IMG/VR virus record: IMGVR_UViG_3300029787_000387
Span: 1 to 21,664 of that record
Length of the DNA: 21,664 bases
Direction: 5' to 3' (one strand)
Origin: a virus
In this document: piece after piece, positions 389 to 6,026 of the stretch
Layout: each line of letters begins with the position of its first letter
Numbering within the stretch: position 1 is the stretch's first letter
Position numbers and translations under genes: made by a program
The notes under the pieces: model-generated
Database searches by the model: none
What the model saw: only the letters and a program-made list of their open reading frames with translations
Told to the model about the DNA's origin: nothing

Positions 389-1354
389 ATGAAAGCATTC
401 GCAGTCGCCCTGCTCGGTCTGTTTACGATCACACCGATAGCAGAAGCATCAACCAGACTAAGTGGAGCAGGAGCATCTTTCCCTGCCAAAATTTACACTC
501 GTTGGTTTGCTGACCTTGCAAAAGAAAAAGGTGCAGCACGAGTAAACTATCAGGCAGTTGGATCTGGTAGTGGTAGAAAAGCATTCATCGATCAAACAGT
601 AAACTTTGGTGCATCTGATGATCCTATGAAGGACGCAGACATTGCCAAAGTGACAAGAGGTTTAGTTCAGATACCTATGACAGGTGGAACTATTGCTTTT
701 GGATACAACAATCCTGGTTGTGACTTAAAACTCACACAACAACAGGCAGTTGAAGTTGCTATGGGTATGATTGACAACTGGAAGGAACTTGGTTGTGATG
801 ACCAGAAACTAACTTGGGCACATCGCTCAGATGGTTCTGGAACAACTAAGGCATTCACAAATAGTATGGAAGCATTCTCTCCTACATGGACACTAGGTAC
901 AGGTAAGTCAGTTGCTTGGGTAAAAGGAGTTGGTGGTAAGGGTAACGCAGGAGTAGCAGGAGTGATTAAGAATACACCTGGTGCTATCGGTTATGTAAAC
1001 CAATCTTATATTGATGACACTGTTAGAGCAGCAGCATTACAAAACTTGAATGGTGACTTTGTAAAACCATCTGTTGAAGCAGGAGCATTAGCACTCAATG
1101 GTATTGAGTTAGATGAAAACCTAGCAGGAAAGAATCCTAACCCAACAAAGGCAGGAGCATATCCTATTGCTACATTGACATGGGTACTTGCTTATGAAAC
1201 TGGTAATGGTAGAAGTACTGACGCAATCAAGTCTTCATTGAGCAGACTACTTAGTGACGAGTACCAAGATAAAGCACCTAAACTAGGATTCGTTCCTCTA
1301 AAAGGTGAGATCTTAGAGAAAGCAAGAGCAGCAGTTGACAAGATCGGCAAGTAG
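389..1354 (+). CDS. pstS: Phosphate ABC transporter substrate-binding protein PstS
   Basis: This is a periplasmic phosphate-binding protein of 321 aa, the normal length. A signal peptide covers about residues 1-20 (hydrophobic 4-17, likely cleavage after AEA). The family motifs are present: GAGASFP (26-32), GSGSG (58-62), GASDDPM (74-80) and the phosphate-binding RSDGSGTT (146-153). It delivers inorganic phosphate to the host PstCAB importer; the phage carries no transporter of its own here, so it must work with host components. It is a monocistronic unit, with a Pho-box-like promoter in front. A consensus promoter for the next transcript begins inside its last codons (TTGACA 1335-1340). Cyanophage pstS is a well-known auxiliary metabolic gene and is probably host-derived. 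Confidence 0.96.
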   Translation: MKAFAVALLGLFTITPIAEASTRLSGAGASFPAKIYTRWFADLAKEKGAARVNYQAVGSGSGRKAFIDQTVNFGASDDPMKDADIAKVTRGLVQIPMTGGTIAFGYNNPGCDLKLTQQQAVEVAMGMIDNWKELGCDDQKLTWAHRSDGSGTTKAFTNSMEAFSPTWTLGTGKSVAWVKGVGGKGNAGVAGVIKNTPGAIGYVNQSYIDDTVRAAALQNLNGDFVKPSVEAGALALNGIELDENLAGKNPNPTKAGAYPIATLTWVLAYETGNGRSTDAIKSSLSRLLSDEYQDKAPKLGFVPLKGEILEKARAAVDKIGK

Positions 1355-1363
1355 TGTTATATT
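1335..1363 (+). promoter_or_regulatory. Consensus sigma70 promoter inside the pstS 3' end
   Basis: TTGACA (1335-1340), a 17-nt spacer and TATATT (1358-1363) form a near-perfect vegetative promoter overlapping the last codons of pstS. Transcription would begin near 1370, at the 5' edge of a gene-free structured region, and end at the terminator at 1585-1607. This placement suggests a promoter dedicated to a non-coding RNA. Confidence 0.65.
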
Positions 1364-1573
1364 ATAAGGGTGAGAGTAATTAACTCACAAGGGAGTGACT
1401 GAATAACCCTGTTGGAATTAGGCGGGGTAATGTAAAGAGTTAGGGGTGGTGCCCGCTGCTTCGGCAGAACTATGACCAATAGAACTCTTGTTGTTATGTA
1501 CTAATTTTCGCACTAGCGATTCCCATAGCATGAGGGTAAAATGTATTCCCTCCTCCCACCCTTCTATATCATG

Positions 1574-1581
1574 GATAAATA
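1574..1581 (+). promoter_or_regulatory. Late-type promoter octamer GATAAATA
   Basis: GATAAATA differs by one base from the T4-type late promoter TATAAATA (cyanophage form NATAAATA). Transcription would start about 6 nt after it, near 1587, inside the left arm of the terminator hairpin and about 20 nt before the ATG at 1608. It is the best candidate for driving the large structural gene late in infection. Confidence 0.5.
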
Positions 1582-1584
1582 ACT

Positions 1585-1607
1585 AGACCTATACTAGGTC
1601 TTTTTTT
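1585..1607 (+). terminator. Intrinsic terminator abutting the 1608 start codon
   Basis: AGACCTA (1585-1591) and TAGGTCT (1595-1601) form a perfect 7-bp stem with a 3-nt loop, followed by a T-tract to 1607. The start codon of the next gene begins on the very next base. It would end the putative non-coding RNA made from the 1335 promoter. Confidence 0.8.
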
Positions 1608-4600
1608 ATGGTTGCAGGAAATCCTTGCTACGGTTCGGACGGAATACCACTGCTACCCAGTAGTACCACAAGCAATAGTTATCCAAGAGCAAGACAGGGT
1701 GAAGTTCCTCCAACTCCACCCACTCCTGCGGGTGAGAACATTCGGATATCTGTTGGTGGTTGCTATGTTGTTGAGAGTATACCTAGTGTTACCCCTGATG
1801 CACCAGGGTCACCACGAGTAAGTACAGCAAGACCACCGACAGTAGATGACTCAGTACCCCCTCCTGCTGCGTCTCCATCAGATTTAATAAGAAGTATTGT
1901 AGATAATTGTTATGATGGTTTACCTATTGCATTAGCACCATCAAATAAGGGTGCGTATCCTAGACAAAGACAAGGAGAATCAGAACCACCAGCAGCAACA
2001 CCAGCAGGACAAGCGATAAGAAATATTGTGGACCAGTGTTATGGTCCTATCAATCCACCACTCACACCTTCTACTGGTAAACCTATTCGTAATAGACAGG
2101 GTGAACCTCCTGCTGCGTCAGTCATAAACCCAGGTCAGGTCATCAGAGATATAGTACAAAGATGTTACCCTGCTGTTGACTTAGCACCAGTACAAGAAGC
2201 GATTGGTCCTAGTGGTATTGATGTAATCAAACTAGATCCTGTTGGTCCTATTGATTGGTTATGTGAACTCTTCCCTGACCTTACTATATGTCAGTTCGGT
2301 GACGTAGGTCCTATCTCAATGCCACCAACGATGCCAGACCCAGGCAGTCTTAATGATGATTGTGAAGAGGTCATGAATGGACTAGCAGATGGTAGTGTTA
2401 AGAAAAGTACAGATCCACAACAAGCAAAGGAAGGAATCTATATTGTATTAGAATCTGGTAGGGAACTCGTATGTAAAGGACTCAATGAAGATGGAGATCC
2501 AGGGTGGGAACAGTGTGTTAAAGATGCAGTCGACTGTATATTCAAACCATATGTCACAGGCACATGGAGAACCCCAGGTGCTGACTGTAAGTCATTCTAT
2601 TTCAGAGGAGAGAATGCTACTACTGGTGAGATATGTATAGAGAACTGCAACGGTCCACGCATAGGAATATATGAGTATGCAAAAGGAAATGCACAACCTA
2701 ACGTATCAATAGCACCATTCTCCAATGCAGTTGGTGGTAGTTCTGCTGCTCTTAAACATAACCTTAGAGTTGTTACTACTGATGTAGCAGGAAACTATAA
2801 GGGTGGTAAAGTACGCAGTGAATCAGGTAATTTATATTTCAATAGCACTACATTACAAACAAGAACAGTTACCATGGGTAGTGCCACTATTACATTCAAA
2901 GCACAAGGTATATTAAATGGTAGTGAGTATGATTCTGAGTGGTGGGTAGACTCATGGACAGGTACACTGCCTGCGATAGGTACAACAGCAACACATACAT
3001 GGAACCCAGGTTTGAGAGACCTAACTGTCACATTAGAAATCATAGGTGGTGGTGCAGAGGACAGTAGATATGGTCTCACACCCGCCCCAGACAAAGCAGG
3101 ATACGTCTCTGTGGGATCAGACCCTGCATTCTATATCCTAGGTCAACAATTAGATGGAACTGTACCACTTTATAGATTCTTCTCTCCAAGCACAGAAGAT
3201 ACATTCTTAGTTACTAACCCAGGTGTACCTGACTCTGCTGGAAGTGGTGAACGTGCCACTATGAACGCAGCAGGCATGACAAATGGTGAGATACTAGGGT
3301 ATGTGTACAAGACACCTTCGGATGCAGTAGCAGCATTGTCACAGGGTGAACAAGTAGAGGAACTACACAGATATTATCGTGGAGGATCACCAGCAATAAC
3401 AGCATCATTCAGTGGTACTAACCTAGTGATAGGTGGAACAGGAACTGGTAGTGTTAAGTTAGATATGAAATGGTCAGATAATCCAAGCACAGCAGGAACT
3501 GCATTTGATACACTGACTGTTGCAGGAGCAACGTTCACACGATCAGGTAGGAGAGGTAACTCATCAACAATGGTTAATGTGACAGCAGGACAGTCGTATG
3601 CTGTGTCTGGTATAAACTATTCCTCCACTGTAAAAGATGGGGGTGAGTTCTTATGTTTAAGAGACGGTGATGGTAGTGATTGTAATGCTACACTCAGGAT
3701 AGGAACTCTAACAGAAGTAACCCCTGGTCCTTCCCCTGACCACAAGTATTCATTAGTCAAGGCACAACAGACAGATAAACCAGCGACATACTTACCAAAC
3801 AGATTGTCGTATAGGATCATGAACAGACCAGCAGCACCTGTCATCATTTCATATAATATTATTGCTGGAAATGCAGGGTATGATAGTTCATGGGGTATTG
3901 CTATTACAAATGCAGCAGGAGATAGTATATCTTGGGCAAGAGTTATTAAAGGAAGAGTAAAACAAAATATCGATACAACACAGTACAAGATTCCTATCAG
4001 TGTACTAGAACAATACCCTAACCAAGAGATTGTATTCTTCTTAGTTCCTAACGGTGGTAACAATGGACTGACAGATGGACAGACCATAACATTTACTGCT
4101 AACAGTGGTGGATATAAGAACAGTGCATCGTCACAATCTGACTGGGTGTTCTTCTCTAATAGAACGATGAATCCAGATGATGTATCTAAGGTTAGATTCA
4201 ACTCAGAGAACTGGCAGTGGTGGGAAGATCTATTGAATGGTGACGATGATTATGATGACTTCAAGGTGTACTATGAAATGATGCAACCTGGATCTGACTA
4301 CAAGTATGAAGGTATAGAAGGATATGTGTTCGGTGAGGACATGCCAGACCCAGTTAAGATACCTGTCATTGTAAAAGAGAAATGTACTGACCCAGCATTT
4401 GATAATTGTTTTGAAGAAACTACTGTGACTCGTACTGGATGTGGTTCACCTGTACCTCAGAGTTCTGCTACTGGACAGGAGAATGCATCTGTTGGTGTGT
4501 GTAGTGGTGAGTATTCAGCAGAGGTTAACAGGACACAAACTATTACAGCGTTGAAGGCAAGCACACTGGAACTGAAAGCATATGGAATAATGATTCGTGC

Positions 4601-6026
4601 ACCAGAGGCAGAGGAGATTAAGTATCGGTTTACATTTAAGAAGAATGGTTCTACTCTCGTAGATTACACAGCAAACGTTGCAACATGGCCAAGGATAGGA
4701 CATACATTTGCACAGTTTACTGTTGCAGATGGTGACACACTGACATATAAACTCGAAGAGATAAGCAAGGGACCAGCAGCAGGATCGTGTTCCTTTGGTC
4801 TGATCATGATGGATGTAGCAACACAACAGTTCGAGAAACCATGGTCAACTAATCTAGTTACATCACCAGCAGCAGGAGAAGCAGCAGGACGTAGTAGAAT
4901 TGCATCTAACTCACCTAGGACAGACACTGACACAGGTAACCAAGGTAGGATCAAGAAACTCAGCATACAACTCTGGGACAACAGAGCACAGTCATGGACT
5001 GATAAGGTTGTAGTGTGGGACAACGGACAACAGGTTGCTGATAACACATACTGGAATGACAATTACTATGGTGGTTCTGAGTGGGGACTACAAGCGGGTG
5101 ACACAACACGTCAAGCATTCCCTGGATTCTATGAGGGTGGTACCAATGGTAGAAGAGGTATCATCATGTCTAGTAATCATGATGCTGATGGTTCATACAC
5201 AAGGTCTGGTAGCACTGGTGATCGTGGTATCTATTACAACACACTGTTTGAGTTCAATCGTGGACTCATATGTAAACCCTCTGAGACTATTGAAGGTGAC
5301 TTAGGATTGAAAGTAGACAGTAACTTCTTCCAGCATAGTAACAAGAATGGATTTACTGCATGGTTTGGACACTACAAAGCACCTGGGGCAAGTGGTTCAA
5401 ACAAACAAGCATTCCATAACTTACTTGATGCATACTATGCTAGTGGTATTACTAACGGTAACGCAGGAGGATATCCTATGGGTACTGTACCAACATCCAA
5501 CGGACAGTATAGTAAGATGTCATTCATGCATGACTATGTGTTAGGTGAGTTTGGTGCACAAGAACGTATCGTAGATACAATCCCCAACGGAAAGGTAAGG
5601 ATGGCATTCTGGCCATATACTGTACCTCCTACTGACTTTGTAGAGGGGGTTGATTTAAGGTATGGAAATAGTATATACTGGTGTGCAGGGGTAGAAGTAT
5701 TTGGTGTTACCGAAGGTGACGCATACCAAATAAATCAAGAGTTTGAATTTCAATACCCTCCTGTCCAAGCACAGAAGAATAAATATCAGAACGTTGCAGG
5801 ATCTGTAACTCCATACTATCCTAGGGATAATGGTACTAACATTTCTCTACCCAGAGAGATCATACTAGAAGCAGAGGATAGAGATTCCGATCCAGAAAGA
5901 TTCACACCTCGTGAAGTTTTCTATCAGGAGTCACACAATAGAGATTCTAATCTCTGGTATCTCTCTCAGTCAGATCAGAAAGTTGATCGAATTAAATTTA
6001 AACTAACTATTGATGAGGTTTACTAA
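1608..6026 (+). CDS. Very large virion structural protein with N-terminal Cys-Tyr repeats
   Basis: This 1472-aa protein shows no catalytic motif and looks like a particle component (tail fibre, whisker or baseplate-attached). The first 190 residues hold five proline-rich repeats of 42-49 aa. Each carries a Cys-Tyr pair (Cys7, 52, 101, 144, 186), most after an IR-x-IV pattern, and several share an RQGE-x-PP segment. Around residues 519-595 a PLYRFFSPSTEDTF start and an LHRYYRGG end resemble a DUF5648-like module. Around 805-895, FFLVPNG then DDDYDDFKV resembles the acidic calcium-binding end of DUF4114-type modules. The rest is rich in Gly, Ser and Thr, as in beta-structured adhesins. The ATG directly follows a terminator T-tract and has no Shine-Dalgarno sequence; no other in-frame Met lies near. 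It overlaps the next gene by one base. The structural role is inferred from size, composition and the late-type promoter. Confidence 0.75.
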   Translation: MVAGNPCYGSDGIPLLPSSTTSNSYPRARQGEVPPTPPTPAGENIRISVGGCYVVESIPSVTPDAPGSPRVSTARPPTVDDSVPPPAASPSDLIRSIVDNCYDGLPIALAPSNKGAYPRQRQGESEPPAATPAGQAIRNIVDQCYGPINPPLTPSTGKPIRNRQGEPPAASVINPGQVIRDIVQRCYPAVDLAPVQEAIGPSGIDVIKLDPVGPIDWLCELFPDLTICQFGDVGPISMPPTMPDPGSLNDDCEEVMNGLADGSVKKSTDPQQAKEGIYIVLESGRELVCKGLNEDGDPGWEQCVKDAVDCIFKPYVTGTWRTPGADCKSFYFRGENATTGEICIENCNGPRIGIYEYAKGNAQPNVSIAPFSNAVGGSSAALKHNLRVVTTDVAGNYKGGKVRSESGNLYFNSTTLQTRTVTMGSATITFKAQGILNGSEYDSEWWVDSWTGTLPAIGTTATHTWNPGLRDLTVTLEIIGGGAEDSRYGLTPAPDKAGYVSVGSDPAFYILGQQLDGTVPLYRFFSPSTEDTFLVTNPGVPDSAGSGERATMNAAGMTNGEILGYVYKTPSDAVAALSQGEQVEELHRYYRGGSPAITASFSGTNLVIGGTGTGSVKLDMKWSDNPSTAGTAFDTLTVAGATFTRSGRRGNSSTMVNVTAGQSYAVSGINYSSTVKDGGEFLCLRDGDGSDCNATLRIGTLTEVTPGPSPDHKYSLVKAQQTDKPATYLPNRLSYRIMNRPAAPVIISYNIIAGNAGYDSSWGIAITNAAGDSISWARVIKGRVKQNIDTTQYKIPISVLEQYPNQEIVFFLVPNGGNNGLTDGQTITFTANSGGYKNSASSQSDWVFFSNRTMNPDDVSKVRFNSENWQWWEDLLNGDDDYDDFKVYYEMMQPGSDYKYEGIEGYVFGEDMPDPVKIPVIVKEKCTDPAFDNCFEETTVTRTGCGSPVPQSSATGQENASVGVCSGEYSAEVNRTQTITALKASTLELKAYGIMIRAPEAEEIKYRFTFKKNGSTLVDYTANVATWPRIGHTFAQFTVADGDTLTYKLEEISKGPAAGSCSFGLIMMDVATQQFEKPWSTNLVTSPAAGEAAGRSRIASNSPRTDTDTGNQGRIKKLSIQLWDNRAQSWTDKVVVWDNGQQVADNTYWNDNYYGGSEWGLQAGDTTRQAFPGFYEGGTNGRRGIIMSSNHDADGSYTRSGSTGDRGIYYNTLFEFNRGLICKPSETIEGDLGLKVDSNFFQHSNKNGFTAWFGHYKAPGASGSNKQAFHNLLDAYYASGITNGNAGGYPMGTVPTSNGQYSKMSFMHDYVLGEFGAQERIVDTIPNGKVRMAFWPYTVPPTDFVEGVDLRYGNSIYWCAGVEVFGVTEGDAYQINQEFEFQYPPVQAQKNKYQNVAGSVTPYYPRDNGTNISLPREIILEAEDRDSDPERFTPREVFYQESHNRDSNLWYLSQSDQKVDRIKFKLTIDEVY

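Follow-up and report, generated by a model that had tools for sequence, protein, structure and literature searches.

A cyanophage manA RNA with its own predicted promoter and terminator, proposed to be a discrete early transcript

In 2010 Weinberg et al. (PMC2864571) described the manA RNA family (RF01745), using marine metagenomes and T4-like cyanophages, and judged it to be cis-regulatory and probably a riboswitch; since that year Rfam has listed it as a cis-regulator presumed to be linked to mannose, with no ligand assigned, and it was later reported in cyanophage S-CREM1 (PMC9964418). The wcaG (RF01761) and PhotoRC-II (RF01717) RNAs, which are families distinct from manA, are likewise structured RNAs reported in cyanophages (PMC2864571). 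The glutamine riboswitch (RF01739) also occurs in marine cyanobacteria and in phages that infect them. The GOLLD RNA and the stable T4 RNAs C and D are also structured phage RNAs with an unclear function, often found beside tRNA genes; manA resembles these in being adjacent to tRNAs at some loci, no relationship of sequence or structure being claimed.

The window analysed here is a 21,664 nt stretch of phage DNA, in which the initial annotation had proposed a novel structured RNA with its own promoter and terminator downstream of pstS, suggesting a search with covariance models, by which any known family that matched would name it instead. Such a search (cmscan, Rfam 15) returned a single match in the entire window, to the manA RNA at 1371-1562 on the plus strand (124.7 bits, E 1.6e-32, gathering score 55.2). 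The match is full length, covering model positions 1-192 with nothing cut off, and the RNA almost certainly belongs to this family. It is, judging from this match, a copy of an already described RNA and not a new family; hence the proposal of a structured phage RNA flanked by a promoter and a terminator of its own is supported, but its novelty is refuted. Neither wcaG nor PhotoRC-II reaches its gathering score in the window, and there is no match to the glutamine riboswitch, the marks of which had already been judged missing from the spacer. The window RNA shares its core sequence, its fold and its cyanophage setting with manA; it differs in that it is followed by a terminator of its own and that a late-promoter motif precedes the next gene, one unrelated to mannose.

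The fold begins with a P1 hairpin at the predicted 5' end, seen in both the Rfam alignment and the relatives, the arms of which are at 1370-1374 and 1384-1388 (these and all further window features are on the plus strand). A P1-type hairpin of at least 4 bp is found in 57 of 62 relatives, with 39 different left arms; its placement near the core, in 76% of relatives against 45% in shuffles, represents only a moderate excess. Beyond P1 lies a core, GGGAGTGACTGAATAA (1391-1406), invariant in the alignment of relatives, within which GGGAG (1391-1395) forms the 5' strand of the closing stem; the 3' strand, CTCCC (1553-1557), is placed by the RF01745 alignment and by the structure count on the relatives. 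Since this stem is invariant in the 62-sequence set, the search for which itself required the GGGAG side, the support for the predicted pairing lies in the complementarity of its strands. The hairpin loop GUGGUG (1446-1451) is also invariant, and its UGGU (1447-1450) is complementary to an invariant ACCA loop (1475-1478), suggesting a possible loop-loop contact, to which a covariation test does not apply because the pair is invariant. A CTGC-UUCG-GCAG hairpin is found at 1456-1467; together with P1 and the closing stem, this bears out the local helices, including a UUCG hairpin, that were originally described. The idea that CCUCCC mimics the anti-Shine-Dalgarno end of 16S rRNA was dropped; some relatives carry TCTCCC.

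The density of pairing had been taken as a sign of structured RNA. The helices are present, but the energy of folding does not stand out (z -1.5, with 15 of 200 shuffles doing equally well) and is weak evidence when taken alone, so that the density of pairing would not by itself prove a structured RNA. The convincing evidence is instead the Rfam match together with covariation in relatives, the latter having also been proposed as a check. When the manA structure was counted on 62 aligned, dereplicated relatives, 84% of cells paired and 28 of the 47 pairs had double changes, with 286 cells changed on both sides compared with 77 in shuffles (0/500); slid controls gave far lower values.

Upstream of the RNA, the TTGACA-N17-TATATT promoter already noted inside the end of pstS was confirmed at 1335-1363, with a predicted transcription start at around 1370. 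It is of the sigma-70 (host or early) type, has a TG ahead of the -10 box, and matches at 11 of 12 positions, as do three other sites in the window; its -35 box lies within the coding end of pstS (389-1354, stop codon 1352-1354). The spacer appears to be free of coding sequence, as had been thought, there being no plus-strand ORF of 50 aa or more in 1355-1607. The terminator originally described as perfect is likewise present at 1585-1607, consisting of a 7 bp stem (AGACCTA/TAGGTCT), a TAC loop and a T-run. Hence the sequence provides both a promoter and a 3' end dedicated to the RNA, as would be anticipated for a stand-alone small RNA. This terminator folds independently of the manA core: the folding energies of the two add up, and no strong alternative pairing between them was found, the tail-core pairings reaching at most 7 bp with no more than one G-C. 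Antitermination in the window was rejected, this alternative pairing being unconvincing, and no riboswitch expression platform overlapping or pairing with the aptamer was found there.

Just ahead of the terminator, at 1574-1581, is GATAAATA, which by sequence match is a candidate T4-type late promoter for the downstream gene; the T4 late promoter as used for cyanophages is TATAAAT (PMC3037559). This gene (1608-6026) encodes a large protein of 1472 aa that belongs to PHROG family 26996 (unknown function) and partially matches virion-protein families and a DUF4114 domain. Across 1574-1610, the ATAAATA motif, terminator hairpin and T-run are followed at once by an ATG with no visible Shine-Dalgarno sequence, and the same layout is found before large late-type genes in L055, L061, L117 and L156.

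The core GGGAGTGACTGAATAA was found in at least 120 IMG/VR stretches, and manA was recovered from 16 named genomes of cyanophages as well as over 100 contigs of IMG/VR, in keeping with the marine, T4-like cyanophage setting of the family. Each of the 16 complete genomes and six large contigs has a single copy; these genomes were chosen for matching manA, and the count is no measure of the frequency of the RNA. The widely used isolates P-SSM2, P-SSM4, P-HM1 and P-HM2 all carry it, and it can therefore be tested by RNA-seq of infections; it is located at 142837-143034 in P-SSM2 (AY939844.2), at 164829-165014 in P-SSM4 (AY940168.2) and at 4771-4969 in P-HM2 (GU075905.1). At an E value of 0.001, manA was not found in ten other cyanomyoviruses (Syn9, S-PM2, S-SM1, S-WAM1, S-RIM2, S-RIM8, Syn19, S-CAM9, S-CAM3 and S-CREM2). 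Four manA-scoring contigs are filed as bacterial genomes (L132, L133, L137 and L153; Nonlabens, Flavobacteriales, Prochlorococcus and Gammaproteobacteria). Over 8 kb, the Nonlabens contig L132 (NZ_RMVE01000006.1) shares 99.0% identity with cyanophage P-TIM40, and the other three are about 69-71% identical to cyanophages over parts of 8 kb. Bacterial carriers were rejected on these grounds, no genuine bacterial copy being found among the contigs with the exact 16-base core, which this check covered; as all four match cyanophages, the family may be confined to these phages. In most other genome contigs matching the 16-base core the rest of the RNA is missing, and these chance-like matches were discarded.

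Of 132 manA relatives, 126 have a promoter matching at 10 or more of 12 positions in the 90 nt ahead of the RNA, compared with 121 of 2640 random 90-mers. Three of the six exceptions (L010, L059 and L112) share an upstream best match or a tRNA-Thr-like sequence: in both L112 and L010, a tRNA-Thr lies upstream and ends where manA begins. In 38 of 118 relatives, L003, L013 and L018 among them, the promoter is fused to a terminator upstream of manA, with the -35 box TTGACA in the terminator loop and the -10 box after the T-run (e.g. GAGGGTTGACACCCTCTTTTTTTATGCTATAAT); such an arrangement would shield manA from upstream transcription. A glutamine riboswitch is also located near manA in L003.

The neighbouring genes vary on both sides, the upstream ORFs falling into 52 clusters in 107 loci and the first downstream ORFs into 37 families across 120 loci, although ORFs were called mechanically and small ones may inflate both counts. 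Directly upstream, pstS is found in the window and three phages, making four of 107 loci; a functional link to the adjacent phosphate gene, raised as a possibility in the initial annotation, is not supported and was rejected. Downstream, gp32 (23 loci) and transaldolase (15) recur, with Hsp20, PurS, phosphomannomutase-like, mannose-6-phosphate-isomerase-like, carbamoyltransferase and pyrimidine dimer glycosylase genes among the others. A mannose-type gene follows in at most six of 120 loci, having a mannose-6-phosphate isomerase domain in one of them and belonging to a phosphomannomutase-like family in the other five, and mannose regulation by manA was rejected on this count. Amongst the 170 pairs of manA sequences at least 95% alike, the downstream family differs in 146 and agrees in 24, and three of the differing pairs have identical cores. 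On a quick tree of the RNA the downstream family changes 80 times, as against 85-95 with shuffled labels, which suggests that position is partly inherited, yet that neighbours change often.

The 3' sides were surveyed in the 119 loci that offered 300 nt or more of downstream sequence. A terminator follows within 60 nt in 21 of them, an accessory hairpin in 28 and a tRNA, 4-18 nt past the closing stem, in seven; the remaining 63 lack all three, and in these the first ORF is a median of 33 nt away. The late-promoter motif occurs in nine of the 21 loci with a terminator and in 11 of the 98 others (Fisher p 0.0016, related loci not being independent); the window has both motif and terminator. In 25 loci the accessory hairpin, composed of CCTAAGATGCAACT-N3-16-GGGCAGATGG and a flanking stem, is situated 14-22 nt past the closing CTCCC, and about 1 Mb of these loci yielded no other occurrence; the window itself has none. 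Scanning IMG/VR for this hairpin alone gave about 120 occurrences, 97 of which have a manA core upstream by pattern; a further seven with enough sequence have a slightly divergent manA upstream when read by eye, and 15 of 16 cut by a contig end show the 3' end of manA. It has no Rfam family, the best score being 13.1 bits against 40. The outer G-C pair is changed to A-T on both sides in 7 of 20 and 17 of 69 sequences in two sets, a covariation test limited by a search pattern that fixed most letters. On these comparisons the conserved 3' hairpin (UAAGAUGCAACU...GGGCAGAUGG), present beside manA in many phages, is previously undescribed. An example is at 4145-4190 of L100; it is found only beside manA, whatever gene follows.

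We consider it reasonably likely that the window manA, that of a T4-like cyanophage, is made as a discrete RNA of around 230 nt, with a proposed action in trans. Host RNA polymerase would initiate at around 1370 from the early-type promoter within the end of pstS, transcribe the multibranched core (1371-1562) and stop at the hairpin and T-run (1585-1607); the gene at 1608-6026 would use its own late-promoter motif, so that manA would not be needed as a leader. The compact folded RNA would then act in trans, its probable partner early in infection being a protein of the host or the phage. Protein binding is suggested because conservation is concentrated at the folded junction and its surroundings, and action in trans because no single neighbouring gene stays with manA. 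We are quite confident that the window specifies a discrete transcript, and would put the chance that this acts in trans at about even; a trans-acting small RNA, as first suggested for this spacer, is thus plausible, and the scattered gene contexts add support.

The Rfam filing would instead make manA a cis-regulatory leader or riboswitch, the 5' untranslated region of the next gene, sensing a metabolite or the state of infection; in the window it would control whether transcription passes the terminator at 1585-1607 and enters the large gene at 1608. The rich, aptamer-like conserved core speaks for this, as do the 63 of 119 loci in which an ORF is typically reached 33 nt past the closing stem and the published judgement (PMC2864571); these leader-like loci and that judgement, along with the recurrence of gp32 and transaldolase and the slightly reduced number of changes on the tree, count against a discrete RNA. 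However, the 37 unrelated downstream families, the scarcity of mannose-type genes, the different genes after near-identical RNAs and the single copy per genome count against a dedicated leader, as do two features of the window: its terminator lacks a strong alternative pairing with the core, and a late-promoter motif precedes the gene at 1608. A leader therefore seems unlikely as the general explanation, although manA may possibly have such a role at about half of the loci, those without a separate 3' end. The varied gene contexts, the one copy per genome, the promoter of its own and the often separate 3' end fit a discrete RNA better than a leader tuned to any single gene, and the contexts collected here appear to favour a discrete early phage RNA over the cis-regulatory label.

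Mixed downstream genes would also be expected of a generic expression module, in which a strong promoter and a 5' fold shield the mRNA from RNase E; gene identity would be irrelevant, as the fold would protect whichever mRNA follows, and a P1 hairpin at the predicted 5' end, next to the promoter, suits such a stabiliser. This leaves unexplained the terminator, tRNA or accessory hairpin directly after manA in 56 of 119 loci, as well as the single copy per genome and the strict conservation of about 190 nt, and we think it rather improbable. Far less credible is that manA is a 3' untranslated element of the pstS message, made by read-through from the pstS promoter and forming the message end with its terminator. 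In its favour, the search of the window revealed no terminator separating pstS from manA, and pstS is directly upstream there and in three phages; but these account for just four of 107 loci, a dedicated promoter lies between the two in the window, and 38 of 118 relatives have a terminator upstream of manA.

The new observations include the promoter almost always preceding manA, the one copy per genome, the changing neighbours and the 3' hairpin beside the RNA. Whether manA is in general a discrete, early, trans-acting, single-copy RNA of open-ocean cyanophages that moves between positions, the 3' hairpin often being part of the RNA and not of the next gene, seems to us evenly balanced; if the evidence from context is right, searching for a ligand via neighbouring genes would be misdirected, and manA should be studied as a phage effector RNA. 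No report of manA transcripts was found in the literature searched, and a search by term of the main text of the P-HM2 expression paper gave nothing on manA. Several annotated hypothetical proteins (T4-GC 428, 524, 569, 570 and 1355) overlap the RNA and are probably not genes; manA-overlapping annotations are at 2551-2724 of L162, 2505-2711 of L165, 2466-2642 of L161, 2556-2730 of L167 and 2560-2691 of L157.
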